Assembly: GCA_017533785.1 (NCBI GenBank)
Contig: JAFWII010000019.1
Coordinates: 1 to 64,000, forward strand
Reading direction: 5' to 3'
Length of the DNA: 64,000 bases
Source: Erysipelotrichaceae bacterium
Lineage (GTDB): Bacteria > Bacillota_I > Bacilli_A > Erysipelotrichales > Erysipelotrichaceae
Each line of letters opens with the position of its first letter. Positions within the stretch are counted from its first letter, which is position 1. Position numbers and translations under genes: made by a program. Shown here piece after piece: positions 8,622 to 51,072 of the stretch. The notes under the pieces were generated by a model. It was not told the DNA's origin. It did not search any database and saw only the letters and a list, made by a program, of their open reading frames with translations.

Positions 8622-8972
8622 TGGTGGAGATGAGGGGAGTCGAACCCCTGTCCAGAAAAAGCCCCACATCGCAATTTCTACAGTTTATTCCGAATTTGTT
8701 TTAAGACGGATCTTATAGCCCGGACTGCCAGGACCCGAATCTGCCTTTTCGGTTTTCGGATGGTAAGAGGAAGGCTAACTTACTTCACCTAACTTGTGTT
8801 TACTCTGCAGCTGCTACAAGTTTTACAACTGCAGGCTTGCCACGTCTATAGCGACGTAATTTAGGCAAATGCTAATTCTGTATTGTTAGCGTTTATTTTA
8901 CTTTGATGATTAGGTCATCACTCCACTGCCGTTGCGATCCAGCATAATCCTGTCGAGACCAAATACATCCCC
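8622..8972 (-). ncRNA. ssrA: Transfer-messenger RNA (tmRNA)
   Basis: Rescues stalled ribosomes with SmpB. The 3' end on the minus strand reads GGTTCGACTCCCC, acceptor CATCTCC, then ACCA; the 5' end GGGGATG pairs with it in seven base pairs (one G-U). The 5' part has TTGGTCTCGACAGG, typical of tmRNA. The tag frame runs from a GCT resume codon at 8890 to TAA at 8861, encoding ANNTELAFA. With the tRNA-borne alanine the tag is A-ANNTELAFA, ending in AFA rather than the usual LAA. smpB lies directly upstream in the same direction. Confidence 0.95.
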
Positions 8973-30948: not shown

Positions 30949-31389
30949 TTACTCTCCTTCCAGCCAGATCGTGACCGGACCGTCATTAACGAGCGCGATC
31001 TTCATATCGGCACCGAAAATGCCGGTCTTGACCTGCAGGCCTTCTTCCCGCAGGCATTGATTGAAATAGTCGTAGAGTTTAGTGGCTTCCGGACCGCCAA
31101 GAGCCCGGACGAAGCTGGGGCGGTTGCCCTTGCGGGCATCGCCGTAAAGCGTGAACTGGGAGATCGAGAGGATCTCGCCGTTCACCGCGTGGATATCAAG
31201 ATTCATCTTGCCCTGATCGTCGGAGAAGACACGCAGCTTGGAAAGCTTCAGCGCCATCTTTTTTGCGATCTCTTCGTTGTCGTCGACCGAGAATCCGACC
31301 AGGACCATGTATCCCTGTCCGATGGAGGAGATCAGTTCCCCTTCCACGGTGCAGGAGGCTTCGCTGACGCGCTGGACTGTCAGTCTCAT
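30949..31389 (-). CDS. dtd: D-aminoacyl-tRNA deacylase (146 aa)
   Basis: Removes D-amino acids (and glycine) from mischarged tRNA. The two family motifs are intact: SQFTLYGDARKGNRPSF and the C-terminal DGPVTIWLE. Its ATG overlaps the metG stop (TGATG), so it is coupled to the synthetase; a proofreading gene beside a charging gene. Confidence 0.97.
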   Translation of the reverse strand: MRLTVQRVSEASCTVEGELISSIGQGYMVLVGFSVDDNEEIAKKMALKLSKLRVFSDDQGKMNLDIHAVNGEILSISQFTLYGDARKGNRPSFVRALGGPEATKLYDYFNQCLREEGLQVKTGIFGADMKIALVNDGPVTIWLEGE

Positions 31390-33350
31390 CAGCTGATCAG
31401 GGAGCCTGCCGGCAGCGGGGATGTGAGGACTTTGACTTCTTCCTCGCCCTTCTCGTTGGTTCTCGACGCCGTCAGGATCATGCCCTGGGACTCGATCCCG
31501 CGGAGCTTGCGCGGCGCCAGATTCAGGACGGCGCAGACATTCTGGCCGATCAGTTCCTCCGGCTTGTAGAATTTCGCCAGACCGGAAACGATGATGCGTT
31601 CCTCGCCGCCAAAATCAAGTTTGAAGACGAGCAGCTTGTCGGCTTTCGGATGGGCTTCGCAGCTTAAGACCGTACCGACGCGCAGCTCGAGCTTGGAGAA
31701 GTCTTCGTAGACGATCTCCGGCAGATGCTCGATCTTCGGCTGTTCCGGCGCTTTCGGTTCTTCCTTTTTCTCTTCCATCTGTTTCAGCACCGCTTCAAGA
31801 TCCTTTCTTTCGAAGAGGGTCTCCGGCGCGGAAGTAACGGTATTCCCGGACGGATAGAGTCCGAATACGTCCATCTGTTCGAGCGGACGCTTTTCGGTAT
31901 TGAGCTGTTTCAGGATCGCTTCGGAAGTCTCCGGCATGAAGCTTTCGAGCAGCGAAGCGCCGATCGTGATCGCTTCGGTCAGGTTGTACATGACGGTGCG
32001 CAGGCGGTCGGCCTTTTCCTCATCCTTGGCCAGGATCCACGGTTCGGTCTCGTCGATGTATTTGTTGCAGCGGCGGAAGACCGTGAAGACGGTGTCGAGC
32101 GCATCGGCGACACGCAGTTCATCCATCTTGGCAGAGCAGGTCTTAACGCATTCAAGAACAGTCTTCTTGAGGTCGACGTCGACTTCCCCGCTCACGCCGG
32201 CATCGGTGACGACGCCGCCGAAGTATTTATTGGACATCGAGATCGTGCGCTTGACAAGGTTGCCGAGGATATTCGCCAGCATCGTGTTGTAGCGTTCGAC
32301 CATCAGCTCCCAGGAAATGACGCCGTCGTTGTCAAAAGGCATCTCGTGGATGACGAAGAAACGGACCGCGTCCACGCCGTAAAGATCGACAAGATCGTCG
32401 GCGTAGATGACGTTGCCCTTGGATTTGGACATCTTGCCGTCCGCCTGTAAGAGCCACGGATGTCCGAAGACCTGCTTCGGCAGCGGCTCATCGAGCGACA
32501 TCAGGAAGATCGGCCAGTACAGGGTATGGAAACGGATGATGTCCTTGCCGATCAGGTGCAGATCGGCCGGCCAGTACTTGTGGTAGAGCTCGCCGTGGTT
32601 TCCGTCGGCGTCGTATTCGAGACCGGTGATGTAGTTGGTCAGCGCGTCGAGCCAGACATAGACGACGTGGTTCGGATCAAAATCGACCGGAATGCCCCAC
32701 TTGAAGCTCGTGCGGGATACGCAGAGATCCTGCAGACCCGGCTTCAGGAAGTTGTTGACCATCTCGTTCTTGCGGGAGACCGGCTGGATGAACTCGGGAT
32801 GCTCCTCGATGTGCTTCATCAGACGGTCGGCGTATTTGGACATACGGAAGAAGTAGGCTTCCTCCTTGGCCCTGCGGACCGGACGGCCGCAGTCCGGGCA
32901 GACGACGGTGCCGTCTTCGATACGCTTGACCTGGGAATCCGTCCAGAAGGACTCATCCGGGGTGCAGTACCAGCCCTCGTATTCGGATTTATAGATATCG
33001 CCCTTGTCGTACATCTTCTTGAACATCTTCTGGACCTGTCTCTCGTGATAGGGATCGGTCGTCCGCTGGAAGCGGTCATAGGAAGTGTTCATCAGGTCGA
33101 AGATGCGCTTGATCTCGGCGACGGTCTTGTCGACGTATTCTTTCGGGGTCATGCCGGCCGCAGTCGCTTTTTCTTCGATCTTCTGGCCGTGCTCATCGGT
33201 ACCCGTCTGGAAACGGACATCATAGCCCTGGAAACGCTTGTAGCGGGCGATGGCGTCCGCCAGGATGATCTCGTAGGTATTGCCGATGTGCGGCTTGCCG
33301 GAGGCATAGGCGATCGCGGTAGTGATGTAATAGGGTTTTTTCTCGCTCAT
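31389..33350 (-). CDS. metG: Methionyl-tRNA synthetase (653 aa)
   Basis: Charges tRNA-Met. Class I motifs: ASGKPHIGNTYE (HIGH) at about 12-23 and KMSKS near 305. Zinc-type insert with CTPDE and CPDCGRPVRRAKEEAYF. The C-terminal EMAP-like tRNA-binding domain (VYEDFSKLELRVGTVLSCEAHPKADKLLVF) is present. A GAGG ribosome site precedes the ATG, with its own extended -10 (TGATACAAT) 35 bp upstream. First gene of metG-dtd-folD-DUF951. Confidence 0.98.
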   Translation of the reverse strand: MSEKKPYYITTAIAYASGKPHIGNTYEIILADAIARYKRFQGYDVRFQTGTDEHGQKIEEKATAAGMTPKEYVDKTVAEIKRIFDLMNTSYDRFQRTTDPYHERQVQKMFKKMYDKGDIYKSEYEGWYCTPDESFWTDSQVKRIEDGTVVCPDCGRPVRRAKEEAYFFRMSKYADRLMKHIEEHPEFIQPVSRKNEMVNNFLKPGLQDLCVSRTSFKWGIPVDFDPNHVVYVWLDALTNYITGLEYDADGNHGELYHKYWPADLHLIGKDIIRFHTLYWPIFLMSLDEPLPKQVFGHPWLLQADGKMSKSKGNVIYADDLVDLYGVDAVRFFVIHEMPFDNDGVISWELMVERYNTMLANILGNLVKRTISMSNKYFGGVVTDAGVSGEVDVDLKKTVLECVKTCSAKMDELRVADALDTVFTVFRRCNKYIDETEPWILAKDEEKADRLRTVMYNLTEAITIGASLLESFMPETSEAILKQLNTEKRPLEQMDVFGLYPSGNTVTSAPETLFERKDLEAVLKQMEEKKEEPKAPEQPKIEHLPEIVYEDFSKLELRVGTVLSCEAHPKADKLLVFKLDFGGEERIIVSGLAKFYKPEELIGQNVCAVLNLAPRKLRGIESQGMILTASRTNEKGEEEVKVLTSPLPAGSLIS

Positions 33351-33384
33351 AATAAAACCTCGTTAACTCTTTCGTTACGCGCTC

Positions 33385-33393
33385 ATTGTATCA
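33385..33393 (-). promoter_or_regulatory. Promoter of metG
   Basis: Extended -10 TGATACAAT (core 33385-33390). It lies downstream of the terminator of the unassigned RNA, so metG need not share that transcript. Confidence 0.65.
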
Positions 33394-33435
33394 TTTTCGT
33401 CTTACTAAAGAAAGGCAGTTCAGTTTGCCCCGGCA

Positions 33436-33474
33436 AAAAGAAAAGATCGCTCCTTCGCGCGTTAGGAACGATCT
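33436..33474 (-). terminator. Terminator of the unassigned RNA
   Basis: A 10-bp stem with one mismatch (33444-33453 with 33465-33474), then TTTTCTTTTT on the minus strand. Confidence 0.8.
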
Positions 33475-33788
33475 CTTCCACCGCTGTACTACAGACTTGA
33501 TTTGTTGTTAATCGACTCGTATTCGATATTCTGAATCTGTCAGCCAGCAGCTGTGATGAAGAACGGATCCCGATCGTAACTCACTTTTCTTTCATGCTTG
33601 TTCTACGTTTGGAAATACTTTCCCGGTCTCTAAATTATTATCAGCAGACTTTTTTCTAACAATTTTACCGAGTTTCCGATCGTGGATTCTGGGCGTCTTT
33701 ATTTGTTTTTTCAAATAAGGACTTATTTATTGTAGTGTGCCCATTGGTCTGTACCTTTCGATTGAATTGTACAACCGTCCTTTCTTCA
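33440..33788 (-). ncRNA. Candidate structured non-coding RNA of about 350 nt, class unknown
   Basis: A 570-bp gap between metG and the next gene has no plausible ORF. The segment has its own promoter and terminator on the minus strand. Pairable segments: 33777-33782 with 33717-33722; 33769-33776 with 33746-33754 (one bulge); 33739-33743 with 33690-33694; a 7-bp hairpin 33712-33718 with 33699-33705; and, near the 3' end, ACAGATT with AAGTCTGT enclosing an ATCGA/TCGAT hairpin. RNase P, SRP, 6S and T-box hallmarks were looked for and not found. Structure was drawn by eye only. Confidence 0.45.
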
Positions 33789-33793
33789 CCTTC

Positions 33794-33821
33794 ATACTAT
33801 CAAAACCGTTTTTACATACAA
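33794..33821 (-). promoter_or_regulatory. Promoter of the unassigned RNA
   Basis: TTGTAT (33816-33821), 16-bp spacer ending in TGA, TAGTAT (33794-33799). Transcription would begin near 33788. Confidence 0.55.
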
Positions 33822-33847
33822 GTCTGTTTTTAAAAATTTTTTCGTAG

Positions 33848-33853
33848 TATAAT
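33848..33853 (+). promoter_or_regulatory. Plus-strand -10 box facing a terminator
   Basis: TATAAT about 40 bp before a terminator hairpin with no gene between. A very short plus-strand RNA (about 33860-33916) is possible but weakly supported. Confidence 0.3.
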
Positions 33854-33890
33854 AATAGTTGTGGGGTCAGAAGATCCTTTTCTTTTACGC

Positions 33891-33916
33891 AAAACGCAGG
33901 GAGACCCTGCGTTTTT
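33891..33916. terminator. Terminator of the membrane protein gene (bidirectional form)
   Basis: AAACGCAGGG/CCCTGCGTTT hairpin with T-runs on both sides, 5 bp past the stop at 33921. Confidence 0.85.
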
Positions 33917-33920
33917 CTGT

Positions 33921-34787
33921 TTATTCTCCGAGGAAGGTGATCACGATATCGGTATTACCGTCTTCTCGCTTCACGACTTCCGCCTGGTAGCGGTCTGTCT
34001 TGCCGTTCTCCTCGACCGTGAATCCGAAGGTGCCGTATTTCGTGGCATGGATATATAGCCGTCCGCTTTCCGAATCGACCAGCTGCACGTTCAGCGTTTC
34101 AGCATCCTCGTTTCGCAGAACAGCCTCCTCTGAATACACATGTCCCTCCGGAAGCGATGTATAGACCGTCAGATCGAGCGGCGGTGTCAGCAGGAGATAA
34201 GCGATGAGCGCAGCCGCCGGCACCGCAATGCCGATCAGCTTCTGCAGTCCCTTCGGGAAAAAGGCGAATACATAGAGCAGGATCTGTCCGATGCAGAAAA
34301 GCGTCGCCAGGAGAAGACGCGGGAATTCCTGCGCACAGGTCCTTCCGCACTCCGCAGCGGTATAGCCGAGAAAAGCCAGGACCGGGGCAAAGATCAGGAC
34401 GCTCCACCAGTCGCGGCGGTTGATATACCAGCCGAAAAAGGCCAGCGGCAGCGTCGCCACCGTCCAGATGAACCAGTAACCATAGAAGCGGAAGATCTCC
34501 CAGCCGGCGAACGGGACCTGAAAGAGATAGATCAGCGGCTGGCTGATCAGAAAGAAGACGAAGACCTTCAGAGCCGATTCCTTCGGGGAGCGGCAGTTGG
34601 CCATGATCACCACAGCCGGCAGGATCCAGGCTTCAAGATACACGCCCATCCGGTTGAAGGATGTATTCTTGAACAGCGGGACCGCCAGAAAAATGAAGGT
34701 CAGGAAAGCGCAGCCGACCGCCATGAAAAGGACGGTCAGCCAGCTCATCTTCAGCCCGCCGAAGAGTTTATCCAGTGCTTTTTTCAT
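33921..34787 (-). CDS. Polytopic membrane protein of unknown function (288 aa)
   Basis: Not assigned to a family. Six or so membrane segments in the first 185 residues, then a C-terminal extracellular beta-rich domain of about 90 residues (LPEGHVYSEEAVLRNEDAETLNVQLVD onwards to AEVVKREDGNTDIVITFLGE). It lies 15 nt after the TSCPD gene in the same direction. The tail could sense an extracellular ligand; no evidence beyond topology. Confidence 0.75.
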   Translation of the reverse strand: MKKALDKLFGGLKMSWLTVLFMAVGCAFLTFIFLAVPLFKNTSFNRMGVYLEAWILPAVVIMANCRSPKESALKVFVFFLISQPLIYLFQVPFAGWEIFRFYGYWFIWTVATLPLAFFGWYINRRDWWSVLIFAPVLAFLGYTAAECGRTCAQEFPRLLLATLFCIGQILLYVFAFFPKGLQKLIGIAVPAAALIAYLLLTPPLDLTVYTSLPEGHVYSEEAVLRNEDAETLNVQLVDSESGRLYIHATKYGTFGFTVEENGKTDRYQAEVVKREDGNTDIVITFLGE

Positions 34788-35115: not shown

Positions 35116-36969
35116 TCAGGCTTTCAGACAGCGCATCGCGTTGAGCACGCAGAGGAAGGCGACGCCTACATCGGCGAAGACCGCCCACCACATGTTGGTA
35201 AAGCCGAGAGCCGAGAGGATCAGCACCAGCACCTTGACTCCGATCGCGAACCAGATGTTCTCGTAGACGATGCGGTTGGTCTTGCGGGCGATCCGGATCG
35301 CTTCCGCGATCTTGGTCACGTTGTCGTCCATCAGTACGATATCCGCCGCTTCGATCGCGGCATCCGAACCCAGAGCGCCCATCGCGATGCCGACATCGGC
35401 ACGCATCAGCACCGGCGCGTCGTTGATGCCGTCCCCGACGAAAGCGAGCTTTTCGTTTTCGCCGCAGCCGGCCATACGTTTCTCAAGAGCCGTGACTTTA
35501 TCTCCCGGCAGAAGCTCCGCCTCGCAGGCATCGATCCCGAGTTCGCGGCAGACCGCTTCCGCCGTGCGTTTGTTGTCGCCTGACAGCAGTACAGTCTCCC
35601 GGATCCCTTCTCTTTTCAGGGCAGCGACCGCTTCCTTGGCTTCCTTCTTGATCGTATCGGCGATCAGGATATATCCGGCATACTGACGGTTGACCGCAAC
35701 ATAGACGACGGTCCCGAGATCGTTCTCCGCTTCTTTGCAGGGAACGCCGTATTTATCAAACAGCTTGCGGTTGCCGACCAGGACTTCCTTTCCGTCCACT
35801 ATGGCTTTTACACCGTGTCCGGCTGTTTCTTCGATATCGTTTGCTTCCGGTCTATGTTCCCCGGCCGCTTCCTTTAAAGAGGCAGCGATCGGATGATCGG
35901 AATAGCTCTCCGCGGCGGCTGCGTAGAGCAGCACTTCCGCGGCGCTGAAACCTTCTTCCGGAACTGTATCCTGCACCGAGAATGAGCCTTCGGTCAGGGT
36001 GCCGGTCTTATCCATGGCCAGGACCTTGACCTGGCAGAGCGCTTCGAGATAGTTGCCGCCCTTGATCAGGATGCCCTTCCGGCTGGCGCCGCCGATACCG
36101 CCGAAAAACGACAGCGGAACGGACAGTACGAGCGCGCAGGGGCAGGAAATGACTAAGAACGTCAGAGCCCGGTAGATCCACATCTTCCAGACTTCGAGCT
36201 GACCGATCCCGGTGAAAAGCGGCGGAAGGACCGCCAGCGCCAGGGCGCTCAGCACGACAGCAGGAGTGTAGTATTTGGCGAATTTGGTGATGAAGGCTTC
36301 GGACTTGCTCTTCTTTTCCGCGGAATTCTCGACGAGGTCGAGGATCCGTGAGACCGTCGACTCCTCGAATTCCTTGGTGACCCTGACATGCAGGAGACCG
36401 CTCTCGTTGATACAGCCGGAGATGACTTCCTCCCCTTCCTTCACCATGCGGGGAACGGATTCCCCGGTAAGGGCGGAGGTATCGATGCGCGAACTGCCGG
36501 AGATGACAGTGCCGTCAAGCGGGATACGCTCACCCGGTTTGATGACGATCACGGTGCCGGCTTCGATTTCTTCCGGGTCGACCTGTTCAAGCCCGTCTTC
36601 GGTCTCGATATTGGCGTAGTCCGGACGCAGGTCCATCAGTGAGGAAACGGATCTCCGGGAGCGGTTGACCGCGTAGTCCTGGAACCATTCGCCGACCTGA
36701 TAGAACAGCATGACCGCGACCGCTTCGGAATGTTCACCTAATGCAAAAGCGCCAAGCGAGGCGACCGCCATCAGGAAGTTCTCATCGAAGACCTGGCCGT
36801 TGCCGATATTGCGGACCGCCTTGAAAAGCACGTTCCAGGCAACGATCAGATAAGCGGTGATGAATAAGATCAGTTTCGCGATCTCCGGCAGCGGCAGAAG
36901 CAGCGCCAGAGCATATAAAAGAGCCGCGGAGACGATCCGCACCAGCATCTTTTTCTGTTTCTTTGTCAT
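35116..36969 (-). CDS. Zn/Cd/Pb-type P1B ATPase (617 aa)
   Basis: Exports divalent soft metals across the membrane. Features in order: membrane segments, LTGESVP actuator loop, the metal-site SCPCALVLSVP motif (near residue 276), phosphorylation site DKTGTLTEG (Asp near 317), HP-containing loop SDHPIA, and GDGINDAPVLMRADVGIAMG. The N-terminal HMA domain usual in ZntA/CadA is absent and instead encoded as a separate gene 1 nt upstream. The ArsR repressor divergent to it has a zinc-type site, supporting Zn/Cd. Confidence 0.93.
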   Translation of the reverse strand: MTKKQKKMLVRIVSAALLYALALLLPLPEIAKLILFITAYLIVAWNVLFKAVRNIGNGQVFDENFLMAVASLGAFALGEHSEAVAVMLFYQVGEWFQDYAVNRSRRSVSSLMDLRPDYANIETEDGLEQVDPEEIEAGTVIVIKPGERIPLDGTVISGSSRIDTSALTGESVPRMVKEGEEVISGCINESGLLHVRVTKEFEESTVSRILDLVENSAEKKSKSEAFITKFAKYYTPAVVLSALALAVLPPLFTGIGQLEVWKMWIYRALTFLVISCPCALVLSVPLSFFGGIGGASRKGILIKGGNYLEALCQVKVLAMDKTGTLTEGSFSVQDTVPEEGFSAAEVLLYAAAAESYSDHPIAASLKEAAGEHRPEANDIEETAGHGVKAIVDGKEVLVGNRKLFDKYGVPCKEAENDLGTVVYVAVNRQYAGYILIADTIKKEAKEAVAALKREGIRETVLLSGDNKRTAEAVCRELGIDACEAELLPGDKVTALEKRMAGCGENEKLAFVGDGINDAPVLMRADVGIAMGALGSDAAIEAADIVLMDDNVTKIAEAIRIARKTNRIVYENIWFAIGVKVLVLILSALGFTNMWWAVFADVGVAFLCVLNAMRCLKA

Positions 36970-36970
36970 G

Positions 36971-37189
36971 TTACTTTACGTAGATGATCGTATCCGGATC
37001 CGCCTTGGCGACGCGTTTGACCGCTTCCTCGACGATCCCGGCCATCTTTTCTTCAGGCGCCTTGATCGAAAGCTTCTGGGTCATGAAACTGACGGTCGCG
37101 TCTTCGACGCCTTCGATCTCCTTTACGATATTTTCAACCTTTGCCGCGCAGGCTGCGCAGTCGACCTCGATCTTGAATGTTTTCTTCAT
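36971..37189 (-). CDS. Stand-alone HMA metal-binding protein (72 aa)
   Basis: Heavy-metal-associated domain that probably passes metal to the adjacent ATPase. Ferredoxin-like fold with VDCAACAAKVENIV giving Cys11 and Cys14 in place of the usual GMTCxxC. The start at 37189 has GAGGT upstream. First gene of the efflux operon; its stop is 1 nt from the ATPase start. Confidence 0.9.
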   Translation of the reverse strand: MKKTFKIEVDCAACAAKVENIVKEIEGVEDATVSFMTQKLSIKAPEEKMAGIVEEAVKRVAKADPDTIIYVK

Positions 37190-37207
37190 AGCGTTTACCT
37201 CTTTCAA

Positions 37208-37230
37208 TTGAATACTTGTTCAACTGTTCA
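37208..37230. promoter_or_regulatory. ArsR/SmtB-type operator
   Basis: TTGAA-N6-TTCAA (37208-37223) plus a further TGTTCA (37225-37230), together giving the TGAA...TGTTCA pattern of SmtB/CzrA operators. It sits between the -10 box and the ribosome site of the efflux operon. Confidence 0.65.
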
Positions 37231-37235
37231 TACTT

Positions 37236-37263
37236 ATTATACCATCCCTCCGATGTGTGTCAA
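37236..37263 (-). promoter_or_regulatory. Promoter of the metal efflux operon
   Basis: TTGACA (37258-37263), 16-bp spacer, TATAAT (37236-37241): near-consensus, fitting a repressed strong promoter. Confidence 0.85.
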
Positions 37264-37292
37264 TTGGAACTTGCCGGAAATTTGGTTAAAAT
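37264..37292 (+). promoter_or_regulatory. Promoter of arsR-ogt
   Basis: TTGGAA (37264-37269), 17-bp spacer, TAAAAT (37287-37292), then 6 nt to the ATG at 37299. It begins at the base after the divergent -35. Confidence 0.65.
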
Positions 37293-37298
37293 AGAGGC

Positions 37299-37643
37299 AT
37301 GGATGAATTCTTATACGAAAGTGACAATCCCGAAGCCGTGCAGAAAGCGCTGGACGCGATGCCGGATGAGCTGCTGATCGAAGATCTTTCCTATTTCTAT
37401 AAGGTCATGGGCGATCCGACCCGTCTGCGTCTTCTGATGACGCTCGCCGGCGGGGAGCTCTCGGTCTCCGATCTCTGCAACGTGATCGGCATGAACCGCT
37501 CGGCGGTCTCCCACCAGCTGCGGGAACTGCGCAACGCCAAGCTCGTCAAACCCAGACGGGACGGCAAGACCGTCTATTATTCGCTCGACGACGAGCACGT
37601 GCTCTCGGTGCTGAACGTCGCCCTGGAACACGTCAAGGAATGA
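37299..37643 (+). CDS. ArsR/SmtB family metal-sensing repressor (114 aa)
   Basis: Dimeric winged-helix repressor released by metal. The DNA-binding segment is VSDLCNVIGMNRSAVSHQLRELRNAKLV. The last helix shows the alpha-5 zinc site DxHx10HxxE exactly: Asp98, His100, His111, Glu114. No alpha-3 Cys site (no CxC), so Zn rather than As or Cd sensing is favoured. Divergent from the efflux operon. The mRNA looks leaderless. Confidence 0.93.
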   Translation: MDEFLYESDNPEAVQKALDAMPDELLIEDLSYFYKVMGDPTRLRLLMTLAGGELSVSDLCNVIGMNRSAVSHQLRELRNAKLVKPRRDGKTVYYSLDDEHVLSVLNVALEHVKE

Positions 37644-50963: not shown

Positions 50964-51000
50964 AGACACCTCCAAAGTGCTGTAAAAGCAGGATCTCAGT

Positions 51001-51072
51001 TGCCCAGGCGGTCGGCAATCATATACGGTTTCATGTGGTCATTTCCACTGCCGCCAGTAGCCGTATACGGGA
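51001..51072 (-). promoter_or_regulatory. ZTP (pfl) riboswitch ahead of the pur operon
   Basis: Minus-strand RNA shows the pfl hallmarks in order: CTACTGGCGGCAGTGGAA, then GACCACATGAAACCG, and the 3' block GCCGACCGCCTGGGCA. These form the aptamer that binds ZMP/ZTP, the AICAR nucleotide that builds up when 10-formyl-THF is short. No terminator is seen before purE, so control may be at the ribosome site (GGAGGTG at 50967-50973). This fits the operon, which contains both the AICAR-consuming enzyme and fhs. Confidence 0.93.

Follow-up and report, generated by a model that had tools for sequence, protein, structure and literature searches.

A stand-alone RNA with a candidate minimal 5' translation module in Erysipelotrichaceae

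The best conserved element of an undescribed RNA family of Erysipelotrichaceae lies 5'-terminally and appears to be a minimal translation module. The RNA studied here is about 350 nt long and seems to stand alone. We propose, at somewhat less than an even chance, that a ribosome on its 5' micro-ORF protects this RNA and holds its 5' strand open. The features lie on the minus (-) or plus (+) strand of the window, the whole stretch of 64,000 nt that was analysed.

33437-33787 (-): stand-alone RNA, with a predicted start near 33787 and its end in the terminator T-run; based on the fold z and on conservation in the relatives G001, G002 and G003
33790-33866 (-): promoter region, with ATTATA (the divergent -10), 22 nt, AGACT (33825-33821), 21 nt and TAGTAT (33799-33794)
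33848-33853 (+): divergent -10, TATAAT, from the sequence and the aligned loci
33858-33887 (+): predicted tiny divergent transcript, GTTGTGGGGTCAGAAGATCCT and then a T-run, its terminator found in the scan
33779-33785 (-): AGAAAGG, 5' half of a split Shine-Dalgarno, conserved in the split-SD modules
33759-33777 (-): hairpin P2, CGGUUG/CAAUCG, inserted in the Shine-Dalgarno; the sequence varies and the pairing is kept
33753-33756 (-): AGGU, the 3' half of this Shine-Dalgarno, separated from the AUG by 8 nt, conserved in relatives
33727-33744 (-): micro-ORF AUGGGCACACUACAAUAA, MGTLQ-stop, its five-codon length conserved in relatives
33557-33563 (-): UUCUUCA, partner of the RNA 5' end predicted in the window MFE fold
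33479-33546 (-): helices of the 3' domain, with compensatory changes relative to G001 and G003
33439-33479 (-): intrinsic terminator hairpin with the T-run beyond; G002 keeps the hairpin with a changed loop

The window RNA looks real. It lies in a gap of 570 nt between metG (31389-33350, -) and the next upstream ORF (33921-34787, -). The fold of 33788-33436 reaches -102.7 kcal/mol, whereas shuffles average -71.1 (z -6.64), and 0 of 100 shuffles are as low. The RNAs of four related genomes give z values of -5.3, -3.4, -3.8 and -4.6. In G001 and G003 the RNA is 91% identical to that of the window along its whole length, and G002 keeps both ends and the terminator. The body of the RNA is variable over much of its length. 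The initial annotation had proposed an unassigned RNA of about 350 nt, transcribed on its own. The conserved promoter, the fold and the terminator bear this out, as does G002, where the copy precedes a different gene. The minus-strand promoter it described is present in all its parts: TTGTAT (33821-33816), 16 nt, TAGTAT (33799-33794) and a TG before the latter. Transcription from 33787 is a step that we infer.

Some structural details differ from those first described. The terminator exists, but its hairpin (33479-33439) has 16 bp in the MFE fold and not 10 bp. Likewise, an outer pairing is present in the window MFE, although it comprises 9 pairs instead of the 6 bp claimed. More precisely, UGAAGAA at the 5' end plus GG pairs with UUCUUCA (33563-33557) plus CC. 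G001 and G003, the two closest relatives, lack this pairing in their MFE folds. Compared with them, four pairs of the whole structure changed on both sides, three of them in helices 8 and 9. Among 500 shuffles, 3 reached four such changes, a comparison that involves three sequences only.

The conserved part of the RNA is found near its 5' end. The gap had been described as gene-free, but it is not free of reading frames, because it holds the conserved five-codon ORF. The initial annotation mentioned neither this micro-ORF nor the split Shine-Dalgarno nor the divergent transcript. Exactly five codons were counted in 28 of 60 distinct Erysipelotrichaceae sequences (shuffle mean 3.9, maximum 10 in 2000); these sequences are related and not independent, so the shuffle counts overstate the certainty. 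The other 32 sequences have frames of another length, and one sequence (G192a) was left out of the count as too short. Many of the five-codon frames come from genus g7, and frames with differing letters also occur in genera g1, g11, g12, g30, g36, g38 and g59. All three stop codons are used (TAA 40, TGA 16 and TAG 4 among the 60 sequences). Codons 3-5 show a pN/pS of 0.94 over 26 distinct five-codon ORFs. Thus, start and stop are kept and the peptide is not, since the length is conserved and these codons show no amino-acid constraint. G167 keeps the start site with a frame that reads MKR-stop, and in genera g44 and g48 the frame extends to 21-22 codons. The family is recognized by AGACC-N-AUG with a short frame, which the window RNA carries as MGTLQ-stop. 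The conservation of the AUG and of the short frame argues for initiation at this site. A 40-codon frame with a TTG start also lies inside the RNA (window 33592-33714, -).

The sequences before the AUG are consistent with this. The first distant relatives aligned share GARGAAAGG, a variable hairpin and AGGU-NNAGACC-N-AUGGRC. AGAAAGG followed by AGGU would be complementary to the standard 3' end of 16S rRNA, with the hairpin inside. The standard anti-Shine-Dalgarno sequence is used here, because this assembly yielded no 16S 3' end. The inserted hairpin P2 conserves its pairing. In 19 distinct inserts, the mean stem score is 4.89 versus 2.95 in shuffles (0 of 400 as high), and a subset of 13 gives 4.91 versus 3.14. 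Both the P2 and the MD-frame counts include distinct sequences only. P2 is not aligned by sequence alignment and its pairing was counted by script. Since the alignment misses P2, all three of our models are sequence-only.

We consider that these observations can be joined in one explanation centred on the ribosome. A 30S subunit would pair with the Shine-Dalgarno split by P2. The ribosome would then initiate at the AUG at 33744, read five codons and stop 15 nt on. Start and stop would share one ribosome footprint, so a ribosome could stay close to the 5' end of the RNA and yield no useful peptide. The parked ribosome would shield the RNA from 5' decay and keep the 5' strand open; without it, this strand would be free to pair inside the RNA. 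Transcription, ribosome binding, protection and refolding are the steps we infer here. What is observed is the module with its architecture and conservation, a frame of fixed length and the absence of amino-acid constraint. This explanation is favored by a frame that keeps its length and not its peptide, by a P2 pairing that survives changes of sequence, by the position of the module, which opens stand-alone RNAs but is also found ahead of unrelated genes for secreted or membrane proteins, as expected of a portable 5' element, and by the precedent of STAB-SD, an element that stops RNase J1 through bound 30S (PMC4113751). Against it stand the 21-22-codon frames of g44 and g48, the 32 frames of other length, an AGACC between AGGU and the AUG that is conserved more than Shine-Dalgarno pairing needs, and the 5' pairing missing from the G001 and G003 folds. 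It is possible, although rather unlikely, that the whole RNA class, found across a single bacterial family, consists of ribosome-parking sites or arrays. These would combine micro-ORFs too short for a ribosome to start and stop in different places, flanking hairpins, and a symmetric two-way promoter whose second arm yields a terminated RNA of about 25-35 nt.

The main difficulty comes from sister RNAs in other genera. They share the promoter architecture and carry one to four octapeptide frames each, MK[EK][IV]L[LK]E[YI], with a good Shine-Dalgarno (SD) and, immediately past the stop, a hairpin. An MD frame often follows, with its SD in a hairpin loop (GUCUG-CAUGAGGA-CAGAC in g7). Of these elements, the window RNA carries just the promoter and the MD module; no MK-type frame was found in it or in its genus. 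Several sister RNAs, L163 among them, contain little beyond micro-ORFs and a terminator, and so hold no further RNA to protect. Two rarer micro-ORF types read MEPT... or MTPT..., and ...GPGI.... Under the same promoter type, L226 (G064) and L157 (G067) carry MRGPGIH, MKGPGIY and MGPGISGGRF. A script sorted 83 of 93 sequences to one of the four types, which were defined on these same 93 sequences. The remaining 10 are G083b, five G098 entries, G080_C7, G015a, G063 and G192a (at a contig end); G063 does have an MD frame, though sorted among them.

The RNAs could be micropeptide mRNAs, with the peptide as the product and the RNA making it in quantity. The MK-type frames (45 instances, 29 distinct) have a pN/pS of 0.33 versus a column-shuffle median of 0.83, with 2 of 324 as low, and they use all three stops. 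By this measure, they are under codon constraint, which favors a peptide or codon function in the sister RNAs. Tandem frames also look like dosage (four in L177, two each in L165 and L167). Nevertheless, MK frames are missing from the window RNA, no constraint is visible on the MD pentapeptides, and the eight residues carry neither a leader nor an export signal. We regard this as an unlikely account of the family. In the MK-type RNAs themselves, parking seems just as likely as a peptide, or as arrest of the nascent chain at the stop codon.

Another reading, improbable to us, is a decoy that would sequester initiating ribosomes, or initiator tRNA, during slow growth. With up to four strong-SD frames per RNA and up to several loci per genome, such a role is conceivable. 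In G098, moreover, the promoter architecture precedes an hpf-like ribosome hibernation gene (L201, about 744-900), with a short terminated divergent transcript. However, this is a single case. In the AT-rich genome of G098 the profile also matches sites without micro-ORFs, and the window genome holds one locus.

The AGGU-NNAGACC-AUGG core could also be an aptamer for a small molecule or protein, controlling the micro-ORF or the gene behind it. The conserved sequence flanks a variable hairpin. The split-SD module precedes or adjoins genes for secreted or membrane proteins in G194, G187, G192, G101 and G190. However, neither the downstream gene nor its function is fixed, and an aptamer does not require a conserved frame length; we rate it marginally below the decoy. 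L071 (G187) has two split-SD modules 1.8 kb apart, before a cysteine-peptidase-like secreted protein and an ABC transporter. In L070 (G192) the module is followed by two secreted proteins that are paralogs and by a membrane protein of 71 aa, and this 71-aa protein lies again behind a module in G190. A cre-like AAGCGTTTACA occurs within the promoter of G194b, G187a and G187b.

The promoter forms a class of its own and is the most widespread feature of the family. In a gapless alignment of 23 stand-alone loci, judged by eye, the spacing ATTATA-22-AGACT-21-(-10) varies by no more than one base. Profile R3 finds it at 33790-33866 (-) with 55.7 bits (E 3e-16), its sole good match in the window, whose sequence is one of the 24 rows of the profile. 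The architecture is nearly symmetric, since the profile matches some sites on both strands. A divergent hairpin and T-run starts within about 28 nt of the divergent start at 51 of 68 sites (shuffle mean 5.9, maximum 13). The predicted divergent RNA measures only about 25-35 nt and may either be a product or guard the site against leaky transcription. At E 0.01, R3 is unspecific, with matches in 20 of 43 sister-family genomes (best E 1.5e-4, 23 bits). For this reason we adopted E < 1e-6, which gives 113 of 272 family genomes (counted by hand) and 0 of 43 sister-family genomes. Model R2 had no match at E 0.01 among the 43. The R2 and R3 searches used stricter filters, and the number of scored candidates differed between searches.

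All of the evidence comes from comparing sequences, and nearly all assemblies of the relatives are metagenomic. DNA similarity beyond the genus consists mostly of chance matches (E about 0.002-0.05), with real ones in G094, G095 and G194. Scanning genome contigs by pattern gave 19 stretches; we judged 12 as real (promoter and hairpin) and 7 as chance. In viral contigs, the single match looks like chance, and the two MK-frame patterns had no match. Selection on the promoter region alone, with the RNA as a by-product, would agree with the wide spread of the promoter and the largely variable body. However, the five-codon frames, the P2 pairing and the terminators are conserved as well, and the fold z is -3.4 to -6.6 in five genomes, which makes this very improbable.

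No known family accounts for the RNA. A cmscan of 33340-33940 found no credible Rfam family up to E = 10, and only two meaningless matches (E 6.8 and 9.2). The initial annotation saw no hallmarks of RNase P, SRP, 6S, tmRNA or T-box RNAs, and Rfam 15, riboswitch families included, agrees. At 18 relative loci, cmscan likewise gave no match at the RNA; matches to BSnc120 and sR32 were far under the gathering scores and were rejected. The RNase P RNA of this genome (RF00011) lies elsewhere (G000:C24:47875-48208, 264.9 bits), with no match in 33340-33940, and the tmRNA is at window 8622-8972 (-) with 108.2 bits. The window also has a ZMP/ZTP riboswitch at 50995-51071 (-), with 54.8 bits. A type I toxin-antitoxin system does not fit: the frame has five codons and is not a hydrophobic toxin, and the predicted opposite transcript is divergent without overlap.

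The neighbors of the RNA are not constant. In G002, the promoter-RNA-terminator unit is followed by a lipoprotein-like gene where the window has metG, and in other genera the neighbors differ again. At 36 sister loci, when ORFs of 200 aa or more are considered, the one nearest downstream is co-directional in 11 cases and convergent in 10. The window RNA is therefore not simply a metG leader. Upstream of it (35116-37643), ORFs resembling a heavy-metal P-type ATPase, a small metal-binding domain and an ArsR-type regulator lie in a row, as judged by eye. A separate metG promoter, also claimed earlier, was not confirmed: by eye only, there is a weak extended -10 (TGATACAAT near 33390), which the scan did not list. 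T-boxes occur away from the RNA in L019 (G094), L024 (G095) and L072 (G186), directly before metG in G095; cmscan of the window and the gap found none for the window metG. An attenuator or leader of metG is hardly credible, even though metG comes next in both the window and G194, because a lipoprotein-like gene lies between RNA and metG in G002, G094 and G095, L019 and L024 have their T-box farther along near metG, and the RNA terminators are strong.

If the ribosome-centred explanation is true, this is an RNA class where evolution keeps the translation of a minimal frame, and not the peptide or the downstream gene. Ribosome parking at start-stop frames would become testable in bacteria. Five-codon ORFs, which annotation never records, would gain a functional reason, and a set of intergenic gaps of Erysipelotrichaceae would be explained. 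Under one promoter type, the unconstrained pentapeptide and the constrained octapeptide frames give two opposite predictions for mutants.

We call the family new because it has no Rfam model and we found no paper on such RNAs in the open-licence literature, where MKKVLLEY and five other octapeptides also returned none. Each ingredient has a precedent as a 5' Shine-Dalgarno stabiliser, a minigene or a small ORF. Minigenes, for example lambda bar and the 23S rRNA pentapeptide minigene, are frames of a few codons behind a Shine-Dalgarno. Unlike them, the present family is promoter-driven, with a conserved length and flanking hairpins. Dual-function small RNAs combine a structured RNA with a short ORF, whereas here the frame has five codons and the peptide is unconstrained. 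AGAAAGG, about 2 nt after the predicted start, is a 5'-terminal Shine-Dalgarno-like sequence, as in STAB-SD. In the parts of the cry3A study that bear on this, a 30S subunit bound at the 5' Shine-Dalgarno blocks RNase J1 on the mRNA, and the element is also Shine-Dalgarno-like, 5'-terminal in a low-GC Gram-positive bacterium, and portable (PMC4113751). However, as described there (PMC4113751), STAB-SD directs no initiation, while the window RNA has an AUG, a five-codon frame and a hairpin-split Shine-Dalgarno, and stands alone. In the relevant sections of a screen of intergenic RNAs in 50 genomes, the idnO motif is the only one named for Erysipelotrichaceae (PMC11109978). Its sORF and uORF categories, as outlined in those sections (PMC11109978), likewise have conserved start and stop codons; the present family differs by its tandem modules and by having no fixed downstream gene.
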